A stretch of DNA of 21,841 bases from a virus, in the IMG/VR virus record IMGVR_UViG_3300042474_000949, positions 1 to 21,841 of that record; one strand, given 5' to 3'. This document shows positions 9,996 through 21,841 of this stretch, piece by piece. Within the stretch, counting starts at the first letter, position 1. Each line of letters opens with the position of its first letter. The notes under the pieces were generated by a model that was not told the DNA's origin, made no database searches, and saw only the letters and a program-made list of their open reading frames with translations. Position numbers and translations under genes: made by a program.

Positions 9996-10256
9996 ATGTC
10001 AAAACTCGCAACGGCGTTGGCCGCAATTGCGCCCCGACGGAAAGGTCCGGCGTGCGCGGTGAAACGATTGCTTGAACTGTTGGAACCGTCTGAACGGGCG
10101 GCATTGGAATCGGCAATTTCCGACACGACCGAAAACCGACCGACCGGGAAAGCGTTGGTCATTGCGATCGAATCCGCGTATGACGCGCAGATCCATCGCG
10201 CATCCATTGAGCGTCACCGCCGCGGTGATTGCCTATGTTCACGGGAGGCGAAATGA
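9996..10256 (+). CDS. small DNA-binding-like protein with RHRRGDCLC end
   Basis: 86 aa, starting at ATG 9996 behind a good TTGGAGGTGG ribosome site. Two predicted helical blocks (VKRLLELLEPSERAALESAI and GKALVIAIESAYDAQIHRASIERHRR) are followed by a C-terminal RHRRGDCLC. Similar 'helix-turn ... vqRHRrGdCrC' proteins are common in actinophages, where the last helix behaves like a recognition helix and the His/Cys end may bind a metal. They sit near terminase or replication genes. I infer DNA binding but cannot name a target. The gene overlaps the phosphoesterase by ATGA, so the two are co-translated. Confidence 0.5.
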   Translation: MSKLATALAAIAPRRKGPACAVKRLLELLEPSERAALESAISDTTENRPTGKALVIAIESAYDAQIHRASIERHRRGDCLCSREAK

Positions 10257-11299
10257 CCAAGTTTGATGACGCGTTGGAAGACGCGAAATTGGTTGATCAA
10301 TTGTCAGATTTGAAATCCGCGCACACGCGCGTGCTGCGCCAATTAGAAAAATCCAAACGGTCGCAAGACGAATTGGTGGAAGCCGTCTATCAAGCGGCGA
10401 AAGATGCCGCGATGGGAATGAACATCACGCCCGTCCCAACACCGAAACCAGACAAGCGAAAACTCGCGCCAGAGGCGGCAATCTTGATGCTCGCCGATTG
10501 GCAAGTGGGGAAAGTGACCCCGACATATTCGTCGGATGTTGCCGCCGAACGCGTCAAGGCATTGGCGAAGAAGGTTCAGAAGTTGGTGGCGATCCAACGA
10601 GCGGATCATCCCGTTCGCGAATTGCACATTTTTTTGTTGGGAGATCTGGTCGAAGGCGAAGACATCTTCCCTGGGCAAGCGCATTTGATTGATGGCGGAT
10701 TGTATTCGCAAATCTTCCAGACGGCAGAAATGCTCGCGGGGTTGGTGCGAACGCTGGCCGCAGAATTTGAAACGGTCAATGTCGTTGGTGTCATCGGCAA
10801 TCATGGGCGAATGGGGCGGTTCGGTTCCGTTCGACCTGAAAGCAATGCCGATGCCATCGCATACCGGACGGCATCAATGATCGTGGCGAACGAGCCGCGA
10901 ATCAAATGGAAAGAAACCTTCACCAAGGGCGAACGCCATTGGCACGAATATGTGAATGTCCTTGGTCGCAAATGGCTGTTGTTCCATGGCGAGCAATTGA
11001 AGGGTGGGTCGTTCGGGTTCCCGTGGTATTCGCTCGCCAAGCGTTTGTCGGGATGGGCGTTGGCATTGGATGGCGGGAAACCCGACTATGCAGCCTTCGG
11101 CCATTGGCACACGCCCGTTCGGGTCGTTGCCGCGGATGGACGGATCACCGCATTCGGTTGCGGTTCCATTGAATCCTCGAATACCTACGCGCAAGAATGG
11201 GTTGCCGCGTCCGGCGAACCAGCGCAATGGTTGTTGTTCCAAACGCCATCGGGATTGTCTGCGGAGTACCTCATCCGTTTGGAAGATCCGACCAAGTAA
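10253..11299 (+). CDS. calcineurin-like metallophosphoesterase
   Basis: 348 aa, starting at ATG 10253 (ATGA overlap). After a coiled-coil-like N-terminus (about residues 5-55) the metallophosphoesterase motifs appear in order: ADWQVGK (Asp82), LLGDLVEGE (Asp131), GNHG (182-185), LFHGEQ (His245) and GHWHTP (283-288). The first box reads D-x-Q instead of the usual D-x-H, a substitution found in some phage members. Enzymes of this fold cleave phosphodiesters and need two metal ions, and several act as DNA nucleases (Mre11/SbcD type). It forms a two-gene unit with the preceding DNA-binding-like protein. A role in DNA processing is plausible, but the substrate is unknown. The late strand ends here, before the terminator-like hairpin. 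Confidence 0.75.
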   Translation: MTKFDDALEDAKLVDQLSDLKSAHTRVLRQLEKSKRSQDELVEAVYQAAKDAAMGMNITPVPTPKPDKRKLAPEAAILMLADWQVGKVTPTYSSDVAAERVKALAKKVQKLVAIQRADHPVRELHIFLLGDLVEGEDIFPGQAHLIDGGLYSQIFQTAEMLAGLVRTLAAEFETVNVVGVIGNHGRMGRFGSVRPESNADAIAYRTASMIVANEPRIKWKETFTKGERHWHEYVNVLGRKWLLFHGEQLKGGSFGFPWYSLAKRLSGWALALDGGKPDYAAFGHWHTPVRVVAADGRITAFGCGSIESSNTYAQEWVAASGEPAQWLLFQTPSGLSAEYLIRLEDPTK

Positions 11300-11310
11300 A
11301 CTTCGGAATC

Positions 11311-11339
11311 TGCCGCCAAGGTGCCTCCCCTTGGCGGCA
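11311..11339 (+). terminator. strong terminator-like hairpin at the end of the late block
   Basis: A perfect 11-bp stem, TGCCGCCAAGG (11311-11321) with CCTTGGCGGCA (11329-11339), and a 7-nt loop, 11 bases after the phosphoesterase stop. No T-run follows on either strand, so it is either a tract-less terminator of the kind common in high-G+C genomes or an RNA-stabilising stem. Confidence 0.55.
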
Positions 11340-11628
11340 ACCAAACCCCAAAATCTGCAACCTCGCGCTGCGGGGCGTTTTCCCCGTGGGGTCATATCAC
11401 CCCACCCCACCAATAAACGCGCCCCAGAAGCCCGCAAAAGGGCAAATGCGGGCATTTAGCGTGAGCCGCTCGGAGCCTAGCGTTTAGCGTTTCCCGACCG
11501 TATTCACCCCGATCACGGGGGGTCGCTGCTCTGGCAGCCGTTTCAGACGGGCTGGGCTGGCATCGGGTTTTGTCAAGCGCAAGGGGTGCGGCCGGAAATG
11601 GGGGTGGCGGTCAAACTCGTCACGGGAT

Positions 11629-11713
11629 GAGCAACTGCCGTTTTCGGGGGTTACTTCGAGCATCTGCCATCGGCGGTGAGTAACTGCCGTTTTCGGCGGT
11701 TACTCCAAGCATC
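11629..11713 (+). repeat. 36-bp direct repeat with internal hairpin, two copies
   Basis: Copies at 11629-11664 and 11678-11713 agree at 32 of 36 positions and start 49 bases apart. Each contains AACTGCCGTTTTCGG. Copy 2 folds into a 12-pair stem (GAGTAACTGCCG with CGGCGGTTACTC, one G-T pair) around a TTTT loop. Copy 1 pairs less well. Possible operator or iteron-like binding sites just upstream of the early operon. Confidence 0.7.
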
Positions 11714-11786
11714 GGTGATTTTGTCAGCATCGGGTCACGGGGGCGACCCCGCTCCGCCCGACCGACCCCCCAATCTGGAACACCCC

Positions 11787-11815
11787 TTGCATCCCTTATG
11801 GGACGGGCGTACCAT
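11787..11815 (+). promoter_or_regulatory. candidate promoter for the early operon
   Basis: TTGCAT (11787-11792) and TACCAT (11810-11815) are separated by 17 bases, about 50 bases upstream of the first early gene. The match to sigma-70 consensus is partial (3/6 and 4/6). A 6-bp hairpin (11824-11840) and a TTGGAGG ribosome site (11851-11857) follow in the leader. Confidence 0.35.
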
Positions 11816-11863
11816 TGGGGCAGACGGGGGACTTCCCCGTGAACAAAGCATTGGAGGTACACG

Positions 11864-12292
11864 ATGGCACGGACGGCCAAAACGGTGGATCAATCCAAAA
11901 TCACGGACGCGTTGTCACGGGAGATTTCCGGCGAAATCAAAACCGCCGTGGATTCGATCTTGGCGAAGCACGGTTTGGTTCGCGGGAAAATTTCCACGGG
12001 CTACGGCGACCGATTTGAATTCAAGGTCACGGCATACGCCAATGAAACGGGTCGCAACGGAATCAATCTGGCATCACGCGAAGCGATCTTGTTCCCGCTC
12101 ATCGGCGCGGCACATGGCTTGACGGCGGATGATCTGGGTTGCGAATTCACCTATATGGGTCAACGATGGATTTTGGTCGGGGCAAAAAACTCCGCCAAAA
12201 CGCCGATCATTGCCCAACGGGTCACGGACGGGAAGCGTTATATGTTGCCCGAAGCCGACCTTGTGATTTCGGCAATCAAGGCGGCACGATAA
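11864..12292 (+). CDS. conserved phage protein, unknown function (first early gene)
   Basis: 142 aa, starting at ATG 11864 with TTGGAGG seven bases upstream. It is the first gene after the non-coding region. The N-terminal part is helical (SKITDALSREISGEIKTAVDSILAKHG). The C-terminal part reads like a small beta barrel: EFTYMGQRWILVGAKNSAKTP, then RVTDGKRYMLPEADLV. The 'F.Y.G.RW.LVG ... DGKRY' pattern recurs in small phage proteins of unknown function. No catalytic or metal-binding residues stand out. The stop shares one base with the next start. Confidence 0.6.
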   Translation: MARTAKTVDQSKITDALSREISGEIKTAVDSILAKHGLVRGKISTGYGDRFEFKVTAYANETGRNGINLASREAILFPLIGAAHGLTADDLGCEFTYMGQRWILVGAKNSAKTPIIAQRVTDGKRYMLPEADLVISAIKAAR

Positions 12293-12794: not shown

Positions 12795-13041
12795 ATTGAT
12801 CTATTTGCCGCATCTGGCCGATCTGCCCGATGAGGTGGTCGGGTTGTTGAACGAATGTTCAATGACCGACGAATACGCGCCCAACATTGCGGTTGGGCTT
12901 ACTCCGTCGGGGAAGTGGATCGTCTGCTTCAATGACGGGAATGGAATTCGGGTGTTTGGGGCGGGGCGGCGGAAGCCGACCCCGCGCCAGATCGCCCGTC
13001 ACATTGCGATGGAGGTGTTGGAATGCGACAAGAACCATTGA
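12787..13041 (+). CDS. small hypothetical phage protein
   Basis: 84 aa from ATG 12787, inside the end of the previous gene. Upstream in-frame starts have no ribosome site. The sequence suggests two strands (NIAVGLTPSGKWIVCFNDGNG, IRVFGAG) and a C-terminal basic helix (RRKPTPRQIARHIAMEVLECDK). The family is not recognised. The stop lies 19 bases inside the following tiny gene, showing continuous translational coupling. Confidence 0.5.
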   Translation: MRELIYLPHLADLPDEVVGLLNECSMTDEYAPNIAVGLTPSGKWIVCFNDGNGIRVFGAGRRKPTPRQIARHIAMEVLECDKNH

Positions 13042-13181
13042 TGGATTGGGGCGATGCAGACGAACACGGTGAATGCTCCGTGTGCGGCCAACATCGCGAA
13101 AAGATCAATTCCGGCGAACTAAAACCGTGCTATGCGTGGGAACGCATCACGGAAAAAGAAACGGAGGACGGCAATGAATGA
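13023..13181 (+). CDS. 52-aa protein with a CxxC pair
   Basis: Starts at ATG 13023, seven bases after a GGAGG ribosome site (13011-13015), and ends at TGA 13179-13181. The sequence has CSVCGQH near residues 18-24 and a further Cys36, consistent with a small zinc knuckle, plus a charged C-terminus. It overlaps its upstream neighbour by 19 bases and the next gene by 8. A later in-frame ATG at 13041 would give a 46-aa version. Function unknown. Confidence 0.55.
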   Translation: MRQEPLMDWGDADEHGECSVCGQHREKINSGELKPCYAWERITEKETEDGNE

Positions 13182-13269: not shown

Positions 13270-13742
13270 TCGCCGTGACATACCCGTCGCTATTCAAAAC
13301 CGTCCCCGACCGTCGCGTGGAATCCTGGGGATCGCTGGTTGATTTGCTTTCCACGCACCGCGAAAACGCAGACAAGGAACGCGCGCCAATGTGGTCGCCC
13401 GTGACCCTTGCCGATGGCGGGAAGCGATGCAATGCGGCGGTCATCACGGTCAACGCGATGGTCGTTGATGTGGATGGCGGCACGGCGTTCGAGGTGGCGA
13501 AGGAGCGCGTCGCGGGGCGTGATTGGGTGGCGTATTCCACGCACTCCCACACGCCAGAAAATCCACGGTTCCACCTCGTCGTTCGTCTGGACGAACCGAT
13601 TTCCGGCGACCGCTGGGCGAAGGAATATGACCGCATCCGTGGCGAAATCGGGTGTGGCGATGTGTTGCGCGCCCCGTGCCACTCGTATTTTCTGCCGCAA
13701 CACCGCCCGAATGCGGATTGGTTCGTGGAGGTGGGGCGATGA
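13266..13742 (+). CDS. stand-alone AEP primase-like domain
   Basis: 158 aa from ATG 13266. The pattern MVVDVDGG (about residues 65-72), YSTHSHTPENPRFHLVVRLDEP (roughly 90-111), DRWAKEYDRIRGEIGCGDVLRAP and SYFLPQHRP follows the archaeo-eukaryotic primase-like N-terminal domain of phage and plasmid replication proteins: a DxD pair, an S-x-H-like box, then a 'D...R..YLP' end. In most such proteins a helicase domain follows. Here the gene ends and a methyltransferase begins (ATGA overlap). It may supply primer synthesis by itself or be a remnant. The family call is from motifs only. Confidence 0.55.
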   Translation: MIAVTYPSLFKTVPDRRVESWGSLVDLLSTHRENADKERAPMWSPVTLADGGKRCNAAVITVNAMVVDVDGGTAFEVAKERVAGRDWVAYSTHSHTPENPRFHLVVRLDEPISGDRWAKEYDRIRGEIGCGDVLRAPCHSYFLPQHRPNADWFVEVGR

Positions 13743-15046
13743 CATTGCGACACGCATCGTTTTTTTCGGGCGCGGGTGGATTGGACATCGGGTTTGAACG
13801 GGCGGGAATCCGCACCGTGTCGCATTCCGAGATTGATCCATACGCGTCCGCGGTCTTGAAACGGCATTGGCCGGAAACGCCAAACCTTGGCGACATCACG
13901 GCAATCAATTGGGAGGACATTCCACATGCAGAAATCTGGTCTGGCGGATTCCCGTGCCAAGACCTCAGCGTCGCTGGAAAACGCGCTGGGTTCGGCGGAT
14001 CACGGTCATCCCTCGCATTCACATTCCTTGACCTTGTTGAACGAGGTCGACCTCGGTGGCTCGTGCTGGAAAATGTCACGGGACTTTTCACATCCAACAA
14101 TGGTGCAGATTTCCGACGGCTCATTGGGGAGATTGCCCAACTCGGGTATGGCGTGGCGTGGCGCACCGTTGACGCTCGCCATTTCGGTGTTGCACAACGA
14201 CGAAGGCGCGTCTTCATCGTCTGCAACCGTGACGACGCTTTCAATGGTGTTGGAGCCCAACGCGCCGCGGAGGTTCTCGTTGAGTGCGAAGGCGGCTGCG
14301 GGCATATTGCGGCGGGCGGATCGGCGCGGCAAGACGCTTCCAGAATCGTTGCGGCTGGCGTTGGAAACTCTGGAAACGACATCGCCGCAACCGTCACCGC
14401 AAAATGGTCAAAAGGAAGCGGTGGACCTTCTGGGGACGAAACCCAAAACCTCGCCGTCGGTTCGGCGACTGACACCCGTGGAAACGGAACGGTTGATGGG
14501 GTGGCCAGACGGGTGGACAATCGTGGAATCCTGGGGCAAACCAACGATGGGTTTGTTCGGCCAGAAACGGAAATGACCGACTCTCGACGCGTGGGCAATT
14601 TTGAATTGTGGGATTTCCCGCCAGACGCGATCAACCCGACGCTGAACGCACGCCGTGCGCGCGACCAGATCGCATACACGGAACAACCCGTGCTTTCATT
14701 CCCGTCGCGGTTCGGATCAAATGCCAATGTCACCGAAGACCAAGCACAATCGTTCGCGCACAATGCGGGCGCTCCGGCGGTGCTGGTCGGCTCGCCGTAT
14801 GACGGGCTCAATCAGAAATTGCACGGGGATGGCGCACATCGAACCTTGCGGATCGGGCGCGATTCGTCGGATTTCGTGGTTGCGGAACCGAACACGGTGG
14901 ACAACGATGCGATGTTGCCCGTCGGTTTGGACGGTCACCGCTATCGGTGCTGCGGGAATGGCGTTGTCGCTCCCGTGGCGGAATGGATTGGCCGCCGCAT
15001 CGTTGCGGTTGATGCCAAATATTGGGCAGAAGGAGGCGAACGATGA
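13739..15046 (+). CDS. C5 cytosine DNA methyltransferase
   Basis: 435 aa from ATG 13739 (ATGA junction). It transfers a methyl group from AdoMet to cytosine C5. Motif I is FFSGAGGLDIGF (residues 8-19), motif IV is GGFPCQDLSVAG with catalytic Cys73, motif VI is ENV (111-113), motif VIII is QRRRRVF (153-159) and motif X is CGNGVVAPVAEWIG (405-418). The long region 160-400 would hold the target-recognition domain (ATVTAKWSKGSGGPSGDE is typical of phage members). Motif IX ('RRLTP.E.ERL.GFPD'), normally shortly before motif X, is absent from this frame. It occurs in the overlapping frame at 14463-14519. Target site unknown. It probably protects phage DNA from host restriction. Confidence 0.85.
   Translation: MTLRHASFFSGAGGLDIGFERAGIRTVSHSEIDPYASAVLKRHWPETPNLGDITAINWEDIPHAEIWSGGFPCQDLSVAGKRAGFGGSRSSLAFTFLDLVERGRPRWLVLENVTGLFTSNNGADFRRLIGEIAQLGYGVAWRTVDARHFGVAQRRRRVFIVCNRDDAFNGVGAQRAAEVLVECEGGCGHIAAGGSARQDASRIVAAGVGNSGNDIAATVTAKWSKGSGGPSGDETQNLAVGSATDTRGNGTVDGVARRVDNRGILGQTNDGFVRPETEMTDSRRVGNFELWDFPPDAINPTLNARRARDQIAYTEQPVLSFPSRFGSNANVTEDQAQSFAHNAGAPAVLVGSPYDGLNQKLHGDGAHRTLRIGRDSSDFVVAEPNTVDNDAMLPVGLDGHRYRCCGNGVVAPVAEWIGRRIVAVDAKYWAEGGER
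13926..14576 (+). CDS. overlapping-frame protein carrying methyltransferase motif IX
   Basis: 216 aa, entirely inside the methyltransferase gene in another frame. ATG 13926 has its own ribosome site, GGGAGGA (13911-13917), 8 bases upstream. The sequence contains DSRAKTSAS, DLGGSCWKMSRDF, LPNSGMAWRG, LSMVLEPNAPRRFSLSAKAA, AGILRRADRRGKTLP and finally RRLTPVETERLMGWPDGWT (residues 180-198), which is methyltransferase motif IX. From memory, the 'SAKA..GILRRA..RGK.LP' and motif IX combination is a recurrent phage protein family associated with these enzymes. It could be a separate subunit or complete the enzyme in trans. No frameshift site is obvious, so independent initiation is my preferred reading. 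Confidence 0.55.
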   Translation: MQKSGLADSRAKTSASLENALGSADHGHPSHSHSLTLLNEVDLGGSCWKMSRDFSHPTMVQISDGSLGRLPNSGMAWRGAPLTLAISVLHNDEGASSSSATVTTLSMVLEPNAPRRFSLSAKAAAGILRRADRRGKTLPESLRLALETLETTSPQPSPQNGQKEAVDLLGTKPKTSPSVRRLTPVETERLMGWPDGWTIVESWGKPTMGLFGQKRK

Positions 15047-16513: not shown

Positions 16514-17147
16514 TTTGAAGGACTATGTGGATGTGGCGGAGCGGCTCCGCGAATTCTATGAAAAGCACCCATCGGGTCGGGTGACCACCGCCATCGTGGA
16601 GATGACGGACAAGCGGGTGGTCGTTCGGGCGGAGGCATTCCGTGCGGCGGATGCCGTCGTTCCGGCTGGGGTCGGTCATTCGGGATTGTCAATTCCTGGG
16701 GTGACCCCATACACGCGCGGATCGGAATTGGAGAATGCCGAAACTTCCGCCATCGGGCGGGCGTTGGTCGCGGCTGGTCTGGCATCCAAGCGGGTGGCAT
16801 CCGCGGACGAGGTGATGGCCAAGCGGGTGGACGGCGTGACACCCGTGACCGTGACCATTGGCGAACACGCGCCCGTTGAAACGGTGGTCATCCCATCGGA
16901 CGATGATCGAATCTTGCGGGCGGCGATGTCTCTGGCAAACGCAGATCCGACCACGGGTTCCACATGTCCCGTTCATCGGAAGCCGTGGAAACTCCGTGAA
17001 GGAACATCGTCCAAGACGGGCAAGGACTACTCATTCTGGTCATGCGGATCCAAGGATGACAATGCCCCGCGGGGTTGGTGCGACCAGCAACCATCCCCAG
17101 AATGGAAGGCGGCGAATGAACGCCGCAATTCGGATGGGGGCTATTGA
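16503..17147 (+). CDS. single-strand-annealing-like protein with zinc motif
   Basis: 214 aa. ATG 16503 is chosen because GGAGG (16490-16494) is correctly spaced for it. An ATG at 16488 would lie inside that site. The N-terminal domain reads like ERF/Rad52-type annealing proteins: DVAERLREFYEKHP, a VVVRAEAFRAAD strand, GVTPYTRGSELENAETSAIG then RAL (residues 66-88; 'ENAETSAIGRAL' is the signature). The C-terminus has a separate zinc-like unit, CPVH (155-158), then WSCGSK (Cys181) and GWC (Cys193). Such proteins coat and anneal ssDNA produced by the partner exonuclease encoded two genes upstream. Exact subfamily is not certain. Confidence 0.6.
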   Translation: MAFDLKDYVDVAERLREFYEKHPSGRVTTAIVEMTDKRVVVRAEAFRAADAVVPAGVGHSGLSIPGVTPYTRGSELENAETSAIGRALVAAGLASKRVASADEVMAKRVDGVTPVTVTIGEHAPVETVVIPSDDDRILRAAMSLANADPTTGSTCPVHRKPWKLREGTSSKTGKDYSFWSCGSKDDNAPRGWCDQQPSPEWKAANERRNSDGGY

Positions 17148-17659
17148 TGTCGGAGGCGTGGATCAAGGTTGCCGTCAAAACGCTCCGTGATCCGAAGGTG
17201 GTCACCCTATCGTCCGACGCGGTGCGTTGGGCGTGGGTGGCCATCCTTCTGGCCGCGAAGGAACAAACGCCGCCCGGACATTTTGATTCGGAACCCCATT
17301 TGCGGGCGGTCGTATCCCCGACCGTCGGGGAGCATTTCACCGAATTGGTCGAAAAAGGGTTGTTGAACATTGACCCAGACGGCGGGATTGCCCCCGCTCG
17401 ATGGCGGAGATACCAGATCGACCCGACCGCGGCTGACCGTCAAAAGCGGGTTCGCGAACGTGACGGGCGTGACATTGCCGTGACGAAAACCGTGACGGGG
17501 CGTGACATCGCCGTGACGCGTCACGCAAAAAATCGTGACGGTCACACCCTAGACATAGACAAGGACAAGGACATTGACAAGAAACTATTTATCTCAAACG
17601 GGAAGACGGAATCGGTGGGCGATGTGGTTCAACGGGCATTGAAGGCGGCCAAACCGTGA
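17147..17659 (+). CDS. replisome organizer-like protein (contains iteron array)
   Basis: 170 aa from ATG 17147 (one-base overlap; TTG 17144 is also possible). The N-terminal part (EAWIKVAVKTLRDPKVVTLS, AVRWAWVAILLAAKEQTPPG, FTELVEKGLLNID) matches the winged-helix start of phage replication initiators and DnaD-like proteins. Residues ~100-145 are a low-complexity linker with a repeated GRDIAVT followed by DIDKDKDIDK. The DNA coding this linker holds the CGTGAC repeats, as the origin lies inside lambda gene O. The C-terminal helix (GDVVQRALKAAK) may contact a helicase. The likely role is origin binding and helicase loading. No helicase gene is in the window, so the host enzyme is probably used. 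Confidence 0.6.
   Translation: MSEAWIKVAVKTLRDPKVVTLSSDAVRWAWVAILLAAKEQTPPGHFDSEPHLRAVVSPTVGEHFTELVEKGLLNIDPDGGIAPARWRRYQIDPTAADRQKRVRERDGRDIAVTKTVTGRDIAVTRHAKNRDGHTLDIDKDKDIDKKLFISNGKTESVGDVVQRALKAAKP
17459..17545 (+). repeat. helically spaced CGTGAC iterons, candidate replication origin
   Basis: CGTGAC starts at 17459, 17468, 17479, 17491, 17501, 17512 and 17534; the steps are 9, 11, 12, 10, 11 and 22 bp (mean near 10.7 per turn). Inverted units are GTCACG at 17520-17525 and GTCAC at 17540-17544. The 14-bp palindrome CGTGACGCGTCACG spans 17512-17525. A more A+T-rich stretch (about 17546-17605) follows, as expected for an unwinding element. Confidence 0.65.
17551..17580 (+). repeat. tandem NGACAW hexamer repeat
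   Basis: Five consecutive hexamers (AGACAT, AGACAA, GGACAA, GGACAT, TGACAA) encode DIDKDKDIDK in the replication protein. They directly follow the iterons. They may be part of the origin or simply low-complexity coding sequence. Confidence 0.6.
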
Positions 17660-18183: not shown

Positions 18184-18527
18184 GAAAAGCAAACACAAGC
18201 GACCGGACATTTGAACAACGGATGGAGCCCTACTACACGGAGGCGTTCCAGATTCTGCGTGGTCGCCAGAAGGCATACGGTCCGGCGAACATCCTCACCG
18301 CGGGTGTGTGGGGTGTCATTGAACAAGCGACCAACAAGGTCGAACGCGCACGGGCGCAATTGTTCGGTGACATTTTGGCGGGGAAAATCGTGCTGGACGA
18401 AATGGACAACGAAACCGAAACCGTGTTCCGGGATTCGTTGATTGATTTGATGAACTATGCCGCCATCGCGTTGGCCGTCTGGGACGGCGAATGGACGGCG
18501 GACATGAAGATGGAGGGAACCAAATGA
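18180..18527 (+). CDS. Nmad1-like (DUF1599) nucleotide-modification-associated protein
   Basis: 115 aa from ATG 18180 (ATGA junction). The all-helical domain shows FQILRGRQKAYGPANILTAG, GVIEQATNKVERARAQLFG and DSLIDLMNYAAIALAVWDGEW. 'R...YG..N......G..... K..R......... DSLIDL.NYA.IA' is the pattern of the family once called DUF1599 and later nucleotide-modification-associated domain 1. Members occur in phages near DNA-modification genes and may act on nucleotides in a MazG- or dUTPase-like way. The C5 methyltransferase about 3 kb upstream fits that context. No modified-base synthase is visible in this window. Confidence 0.65.
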   Translation: MRKANTSDRTFEQRMEPYYTEAFQILRGRQKAYGPANILTAGVWGVIEQATNKVERARAQLFGDILAGKIVLDEMDNETETVFRDSLIDLMNYAAIALAVWDGEWTADMKMEGTK

Positions 18528-18724
18528 CACGACGGGAAGAAGTGCTGCACGCAATCCGTGGGTTCGTGAAGGCGAACGGGTATTCACCAACGGTTCGGGA
18601 TTTGGCGGCGATCCTGGGGGTTGGCCATTCAACCATTCAACGGGCGTTGGAAGATCTGGTGAAGGACGGCAAAATCCAACGAGCAAATGGCGTGTCCCGT
18701 GGTCTGGTTTTGAGGGGGGAATGA
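18524..18724 (+). CDS. LexA-type winged-helix DNA-binding protein without peptidase domain
   Basis: 66 aa from ATG 18524 (ATGA junction). It matches the LexA N-terminal domain almost end to end: REEVLHAIRGFVKANGYSPT, then VRDLAAILGVGHSTIQRALE as helix-turn-helix and LVKDGKIQRANGVSRGLVL as the beta wing. Full LexA has a C-terminal autoproteolytic domain with Ser and Lys residues. Here the chain ends after the wing, so cleavage is not possible. It could dimerise poorly or act as a competitor or accessory regulator of host SOS operators or of phage promoters. Confident for the fold, not for the target. Confidence 0.75.
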   Translation: MTRREEVLHAIRGFVKANGYSPTVRDLAAILGVGHSTIQRALEDLVKDGKIQRANGVSRGLVLRGE

Positions 18725-21142: not shown

Positions 21143-21547
21143 ATGGCCAAGGTTGACAAGTGGGTTGCGCTTGATGCGTGGATGACCAATGCCCAGCGGG
21201 TGTTGGGCTTGTCTGGCTGGGTCGTGACCGTGTTGCGGGACGCGGCAGACGTGACCGCGTGGGCAGACATTGAACCCCATAGCCAAGCCAACACCGCGGA
21301 TCTGCGGTTGGCTCATGACTTCTGGCGGCAACCCGCCGTCCGGCAACGGCTCGTCTTGACCCACGAATTGATCCACCTGATCACATCCCGCGTTGACCGC
21401 ATGGTCGACACGCTTGAAGATCCGATGGGAAAATTGGCGTTTGCCGTGTTCGAACCGCAATATTCAGACGCGACCGAACGCATGGTTGAACACCTGGCCA
21501 CAATCATCGCCCCGATGCTCCCGCTCCCGTCGCTGCCTAAGGGGTGA
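21143..21547 (+). CDS. HExxH zinc metalloprotein, conserved in phages
   Basis: 134 aa from ATG 21143, with AAAGGGGG (21131-21138) upstream. The zinc-binding motif HELIH (His74-Glu75-Leu-Ile-His78) follows a hydrophobic strand (RLVLTHELIHLI), as in minimal metallopeptidases (zincins, ImmA/IrrE-like). The N-terminal half (GLSGWVVTVLRDAADV, EPHSQANTADLRLAHDFW) matches phage proteins 'W.I.V........A.I.......A.I......F' that precede HExxH. The third zinc ligand would be in the C-terminal helix (DATERMVEHLATIIAP), likely the Glu. A proteolytic role, perhaps against a host or phage regulator, is inferred. Confidence 0.6.
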   Translation: MAKVDKWVALDAWMTNAQRVLGLSGWVVTVLRDAADVTAWADIEPHSQANTADLRLAHDFWRQPAVRQRLVLTHELIHLITSRVDRMVDTLEDPMGKLAFAVFEPQYSDATERMVEHLATIIAPMLPLPSLPKG

Positions 21548-21840
21548 ATCCGAAGCGTCCGTGCTTGGAATGCGGCGCACCGAGCCGTGGTTCACGGTGC
21601 GAATTGCACCAGATTCCGGACACCCGAAAGCGCCCAGGATACGGCGCGGAGTGGACGAAGATCAGCCGCGAGATGCGGCGGCGCAACCCCGTGTGTTCGA
21701 TGTGCGCCCGAACCGGAATCCCGTTGGCCGTTGACCACATCGTTCCGCGGTCGTTGGGTGGGTCGGATGACCCGTGGAATCTGAGGGTGCTGTGCGGTGA
21801 TTGCCACCGTCGTTTCGGGAGAACACGACGGACAAAATGA
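21544..21840 (+). CDS. HNH endonuclease
   Basis: 98 aa from GTG 21544 (GTGA junction). The HNH motif is AVDHIVPRSLGG (His65), DDPWNLRVLCGDCHRRFG (Asn79 and His88), with Cys pairs CSMC (51-54) and CGDC (84-87) holding a structural zinc. An extra N-terminal pair CLEC (Cys7 and Cys10) is typical of phage packaging HNH proteins. In siphoviruses such genes lie immediately before the terminase small subunit and assist DNA cutting at cos. Its last bases overlap an ATG (21837-21839) that probably starts that gene. A free-standing homing endonuclease is less likely because it is fused into the operon. Confidence 0.85.
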   Translation: MNPKRPCLECGAPSRGSRCELHQIPDTRKRPGYGAEWTKISREMRRRNPVCSMCARTGIPLAVDHIVPRSLGGSDDPWNLRVLCGDCHRRFGRTRRTK

Positions 21841-21841
21841 A

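Follow-up and report, generated by a model that had tools for sequence, protein, structure and literature searches.

In the mycobacteriophages L5 and D29, a strong hairpin in the intergenic region between genes 32 and 33 ends the late operon (PMC5712189). In cluster A mycobacteriophages, the non-coding, operator-controlled region of the early lytic promoter Pleft gives rise to abundant stable RNAs (PMC5712189). A different kind of element is known from the Gram-positive small RNAs (sRNAs) LhrC, RsaE, FsrA, and SprD, whose C-rich loops present a CU-rich motif complementary to the Shine-Dalgarno (SD) sequence (PMC4132741). Here we analyze a virus contig of 21,841 bases (the window), in which a 564-nt gap at 11300-11863 is the largest in a tightly packed phage genome with all genes on one strand. 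We put a probability of about 0.75 on this region joining the late operon of a ~32.7-kb phage to its early operon as a regulatory junction, where late transcription would terminate and early transcription would restart. The type of region is ordinary, and it holds one strongly covarying RNA element, a hairpin called H1, which we think is best read as a previously undescribed hairpin of the late 3′ untranslated region (UTR).

The gap and its relatives

The gap is bounded by the stop of the upstream open reading frame (ORF) at 11299 and by the next SD-preceded ATG at 11864; outside it, the ORFs of the window abut or overlap. No plausible gene lies within 11300-11863. The gap shrinks to 180-300 nt in cousins, and L014 shows a net loss of more than 100 nt, changes unlike those of a coding region; it is therefore non-coding, and the first-pass annotation was right to describe 564 non-coding bases between late and early genes. 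The last late gene encodes a calcineurin-like phosphoesterase or exonuclease (Table 1), with a Pfam Metallophos score just under the cutoff; the longest form of its ORF starts at 10229. The first early gene has no phrog, Pfam, or phage-collection match. The gene following the leader hairpin appears to differ among the window, L015, L016, and L017, and this suggests that the first early position is a variable accessory slot, possibly for host takeover or anti-defense. A C-5 cytosine DNA methyltransferase (13652-15046) is also found among the early genes.

Table 1. Features of the gap and of selected genes in the window
Feature	Position	Strand	Remarks
Last late gene, calcineurin-like phosphoesterase / exonuclease	10253-11299	+	phrog_284 exonuclease, E=3e-47
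H1 hairpin, loop NGCCUCC	11309-11341	+	perfect stem 11311-11321 / 11329-11339; covariation
T2, CCUCGC-GCU-GCGGGG + CGUUUU	11361-11381	+	conserved in L012, L014
Clade-specific insert, segment A	11386-11572	.	small stems 11431-11452, 11507-11520, 11525-11538, 11538-11550
20-nt near-palindrome GTGGGGTCATATCACCCCAC	11386-11405	.	unchanged in all clade members
B1, GGCGGU...ACUGCC (inner CUCGUC/GAUGAG stem), then GUUUU	11606-11644	+	absent from L005/L014
B2, CGGCGGU-GAGUA-ACUGCCG, then UUUU	11671-11693	+	absent from L005/L014
12-bp hairpin GAGUAACUGCCG-UUUU-CGGCGGUUACUC	11678-11705	+	identical in L006/L007, absent from L005/L014
Predicted early promoter TTGCAT-N17-TACCAT	11787-11815	+	aligns with TTGACG/TTGCRC-N17-18-TATAGT-like elements in 16 relatives
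Operator-like dyad GGGAC-GGGC-GTACC	11800-11813	.	counterparts in relatives
Leader hairpin ACGGGG-GACUU-CCCCGU	11824-11840	+	few nt from predicted transcript start
SD GGAGGU of first early gene	11853-11858	+	
First early gene, 142 aa	11864-12292	+	68% identical in L005-L007
Replication initiation gene	17144-17659		
LexA-like winged-helix (wHTH) protein, small, without peptidase domain	18491-18724		

The comparison set comprised 20 sequences (L011-L017 and L137-L149). Where the two align, L004/L011 is identical to the window; its source contig is 32,820 bases long. A repeat of ~90 bases is common to both ends of that contig, and the phage genome is therefore probably a circular assembly of ~32.7 kb. 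Identity across the gap is 88-96% with L005/L014, L006/L012, and L007/L013, and a search with an exonuclease profile added cousins at 67-78% identity (L015-L017 and L137-L148) and the more distant L149 at 56%. The same order follows the exonuclease in 19 of the 20 sequences, those with an exonuclease at least 67% identical, the exception being L149: H1, further hairpins, promoter, leader hairpin, SD, and early genes. The gap measures 180-211 nt in L015-L017, L137-L140, and L142, 297-299 nt in L141, L143, L144, L146, and L148, and 448-565 nt in the window's clade. Judging from these lengths and the shared order, the ends of the gap are common property, with a middle of ~390 nt (11386-11772) that is specific to the clade. 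Within the phage collection, Pontimonas phage phiPsal1 has the nearest terminase (41% identical), followed by phiC31-like phages, which points to an actinobacterium as the probable host. Genome contigs gave no copy of the exonuclease locus, whether in a prophage or in a host.

The first-pass annotation had seen at least eight stems in series and took their density as a sign of structured RNA, a chain of terminators, or a regulatory switch. The stems are there: allowing one G-U, we counted 12 non-overlapping stems of at least 5 bp. Their density exceeds chance only modestly: dinucleotide shuffles give 7.65 ± 2.07 (3 of 100 reach 12) and 7% of other 564-nt stretches of the same genome match the count. 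Stems of at least 6 bp number 7 against 2.95 in shuffles (1 of 100 reaches this), and strict Watson-Crick stems of at least 5 bp number 7 against 3.85 (8 of 100). In a sliding-window analysis, two parts of the gap had folding z-scores near -2.9, and several coding stretches had scores between -3.5 and -5.7; the strongest of the whole window fall in coding stretches of the + strand, at 12901-13050 (-5.7) and 17101-17250 (-5.0). Hairpin density is modestly above chance and, taken alone, is insufficient for the earlier claim. The Rfam search that the annotation had proposed returned no family match in the window at the curated score or at lax thresholds, where the best match lay far below threshold, and no tRNA or tmRNA was found.

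The H1 hairpin

H1 is a 13-bp hairpin that lies 10-25 nt past the late-gene stop codon in 19 phage sequences. We measured covariation on an alignment of 14 sequences without gaps, 8 of them distinct, leaving out L140 and L142, in which the hairpin is the same but for one bulged base. Changes on both sides occur in 10 of the 13 pairs, and 95.2% of the cells in the alignment are paired. None of 500 shuffles reached the covariation score, and pairing fell to 36-60% in a control in which one arm was slid by 1-3 bases. The stem has a mean pairwise identity of 57% and the loop GCCTCC one of 100%; at 4-fold sites of the neighboring gene, L015, L137, and L139 differ from the window by 52-59%. H1 is thus a structured cis-RNA candidate in the usual sense, its stem being kept by compensatory changes among relatives, and comparison identifies both H1 and the early leader hairpin as conserved covarying structures. 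Among the non-Watson-Crick cells of H1, G·T (9) outnumbers A·C (3); wobbles of the G·U rather than the A·C kind fit an RNA read from the + strand.

A covariance model (R1) scores H1 at 45 bits in the window and detects a single strong copy in each family genome (42-50 bits), with the bulged forms at 21-25 bits. Across 0.78 Mb of other viral DNA, phiC31 and phiPsal1 included, the model had no significant match. A 14-base pattern, GGGTCATATCACCC, proved too short and matched unrelated contigs, which then served as negative controls. In phiPsal1, a GCCTCC loop caps an imperfect hairpin downstream of a repair endonuclease gene, on the opposite strand (L201:30640-30680, minus strand); this hairpin is not called by the H1 model and is therefore probably due to chance. 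In a limited literature search, we found no description of an H1-like element.

The predicted fold of H1 has an energy of -20.8 kcal/mol and is followed in the window by ACCAAACCCC. The U-tract of an intrinsic terminator is absent there, so a role for H1 as a terminator is doubtful; in relatives, the sequence after H1 is pyrimidine-rich and T-runs are rare. Since the loop is invariant while the stem drifts freely, the loop is probably read by something, whether a protein or a pairing partner. One tentative reading, which would fit within the junction model, is that a phage or host factor for antitermination, termination, or decay binds the hairpin and recognizes the loop. Such recognition typically shows as a constant loop on a stem that varies, but no candidate protein was identified, and the motif did not turn up in the literature searched. 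Also compatible with the junction model, and in our estimate unlikely, is a riboregulator: the loop GCCUCC of the late transcript, or of a processed fragment of its 3′ UTR, would act as an anti-SD, pairing with GGAGG(C/U) of early mRNA, and perhaps with other messages too, and so stop translation late in infection. The loop stays unchanged while the stem drifts, and SD-blocking C-rich UCCC loops are established for RNAIII, RsaE, SprD, FsrA, and LhrC (PMC4132741). Like the loops of the LhrC/RsaE type, that of H1 is CU-rich and complementary to SD sequences; GGAGGC occurs in 12 of 17 aligned leaders, and the GGAGGU of the window's clade is a G-U match. However, any CCUCC loop complements any SD, which makes complementarity weak evidence, and the leaders of L137 and L142 use GGAGGA. 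SD preference was tried as support for loop-SD pairing and discarded, as GGAGGC is not favored over GGAGGT throughout these genomes. If this reading is true, H1 would silence the translation of early genes from the start of late transcription on, and the phage family would have a feedback switch from late to early that is based on RNA.

Terminator-like hairpins, insert, and early promoter block

T2, B1, and B2 are GC-rich hairpins with four U within 0-2 nt of the stem and with stem energies of -7.3, -14.0, and -10.6 kcal/mol, respectively; T2 is short. The + strand of the window has seven hairpin+TTTT signals, and these three fall within the gap, which makes up 2.6% of the window, while none of the six signals on the minus strand does. 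A consensus scan with a 5-T rule called no terminator, T2, B1, and B2 being below that rule. At the place matching T2, L137, L138, and L142 have a much stronger hairpin+U-run after H1; the sequence following H1 in L015, L016, L140, L141, and L144 yielded no T-run terminator. Three hairpin+UUUU signals on the transcribed strand lend support to the chain of terminators that the first-pass annotation had listed, and T2, B1, and B2 are predicted to end transcription. B2 and the 12-bp hairpin that overlaps it are mutually exclusive because both use the strand ACUGCCG. Attenuators likewise have mutually exclusive hairpins; the present pair shows no variation in the available sequences.

The middle of the gap is an insert whose segment A has no counterpart in the cousins L015-L017. 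Between the window and L005/L014, segment A differs at 13 of 187 positions, against 33 of 167 4-fold sites of the neighboring gene (Fisher p=4e-4); with L006/L012, the numbers are 3 of 187 and 10 of 171, a marginal difference (p=0.045). Most changes lie outside the small stems, a weak observation given three distinct clade sequences only, a number that also leaves segment A with no useful covariation. The near-palindrome at its start could be either an RNA hairpin or a DNA operator. Further on are 49-nt repeats, the first unit of which overlaps B1. The repeats and their hairpins are missing in the close relative L005/L014, where 113 nt of the middle are absent, and so are dispensable. Outside the clade, no copies of the insert were found in viral contigs. 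A host-derived hairpin repeat was considered and rejected: an exact pattern, searched in 84,980 genomes, had 3 scattered matches in unrelated bacteria, a number near chance. Four irregularly spaced GCATC-type motifs (11559, 11657, 11709, and 11728) are also seen in the insert; these could be iterons, or else no more than leftovers of the 49-nt repeat. As a whole, the insert may lengthen the terminator block.

Could all 564 nt belong to a single large, structured non-coding RNA? In favor of this, the + strand can adopt a large multibranched minimum-energy fold, and segment A has fewer changes than synonymous sites do. Against this, helix I4 of the fold (11579-11588/11781-11790) is broken in L006/L012, and in L006 the local hairpin CGCA/TGCG becomes CGCG/CGCG; moreover, the 113 nt lost from L005/L014 lie in mid-gap, cousins lack the insert, the 3′ part is taken up by promoter and leader, and even lax thresholds gave no Rfam match. 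We consider a single large RNA very unlikely and the claim not supported. The structured RNA proposed by the first-pass annotation holds for two separate elements, H1 and the early leader hairpin, which covary across related phages, and is not supported for one RNA spanning the region. The insert (11386-11772) might instead be a replication origin or another site acting at the DNA level, given its dyads, its 49-nt direct repeat, and the GCATC-type motifs. This, too, is improbable: a repeat unit with hairpins is missing in L005/L014, the cousins are wholly without the insert, and cumulative GC skew shows no turn at the region.

The promoter, operator-like dyad, leader, and ribosome site occupy the downstream ~90 nt, where the first-pass annotation did not identify them. 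The predicted promoter agrees weakly with the sigma-70 consensus, at 3/6 and 4/6 bases, and was not called by a consensus scan; the aligned elements of relatives match sigma-70 better (TTGACG, TATAGT), with TATAGT, TATACT, or TACCAT as -10 counterparts. Counterparts of the dyad read GGKAC-N4-GTACC or GGGAAC-N4-GTTCC and lie in the spacer or overlap the -10 element, and no enrichment of the dyad was found elsewhere in the window. The leader hairpin is paired in 16 of 16 distinct sequences, with compensatory changes in 2 of 5 pairs. Over 11773-11863, the window and L005 differ at 0 of 91 positions, against 33 of 167 at 4-fold sites (p=2e-7), and by this comparison the promoter/leader block is conserved. 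A leader peptide (GTG AAN ...) in the early leader was considered and rejected because its frame is not kept among relatives.

The promoter-dyad-leader module has a second copy behind an HNH gene in several relatives. Such copies, with leader hairpin, were seen in L176, L175, L181, L183, L187, and L195, behind HNH where readable. A second intergenic region, from HNH to a ParB-like gene upstream of the terminase, is present in the window (21544-21841), in L190 (1-193), and at the end of L191; it carries the contig-end repeat. The LexA-like wHTH protein, which 12 of 14 related records carry with 52-100% identity, would be a natural candidate for the early repressor.

The junction model and known systems

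Four parts of the model are inferred: that transcription terminates, that the promoter is active, which protein is the repressor, and what part, if any, the H1 loop plays. As late transcription leaves the exonuclease gene, H1 with its GCCUCC loop would form in the 3′ UTR. Transcription would then stop at one or more hairpin+U-run signals resembling intrinsic terminators, namely T2 and, in the window's clade, also B1 and B2. Early transcription would restart from the TTGCAT-N17-TACCAT promoter, and a repressor sitting on the dyad GGGAC-N4-GTACC would probably control this restart; the LexA-like wHTH protein is the candidate for that role. The early mRNA would begin with a protective or regulatory leader hairpin, followed by a strong SD. 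Most likely, the junction keeps late read-through away from the early promoter and places the restart under repressor control; the first-pass annotation was right to see more than spacer here. With H1, a group of uncultivated phages, possibly infecting actinobacteria, gains a concrete RNA element backed by covariation. The junction marks their late/early switch point and a shared promoter-leader module, found twice in some relatives; together, H1, junction, and module make the gene-regulation plan of these phages testable.

The phiC31-like Streptomyces phages and Pontimonas phage phiPsal1 have a similar one-strand, late-then-early layout; unlike the window, the phiC31 and phiPsal1 genomes have no match to the H1 model. 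LexA/SOS boxes, GAAC-N4-GTTC, are contained in the dyads of L015-L017 and of several second promoters. The dyad of the window, GGGAC-N4-GTACC, is not a LexA-type operator; GAAC-N4-GTTC is found in some relatives only, and most have GTAC half-sites. H1 shares with LhrC, RsaE, FsrA, and SprD a hairpin loop that is CU-rich and complementary to the SD, but those are separate, trans-acting sRNAs with UCCC seeds, whereas H1 is predicted to lie in a late 3′ UTR and has the motif GCCUCC. The late terminator of L5 and D29, like the window's region, stands at the end of an actinobacteriophage late operon. In the D29 sequence, a canonical hairpin with a different loop is followed by CTTTTT; the GCCTCC loop and a match to the H1 model are absent, the next gene, integrase, is on the opposite strand, and the gap has no early promoter of the window's kind. 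The likeness to Pleft of the cluster A mycobacteriophages is that of a non-coding region at an operator-controlled early lytic promoter; the Pleft RNA lies downstream of its promoter, whereas most of the structure in the window lies upstream of the early promoter.
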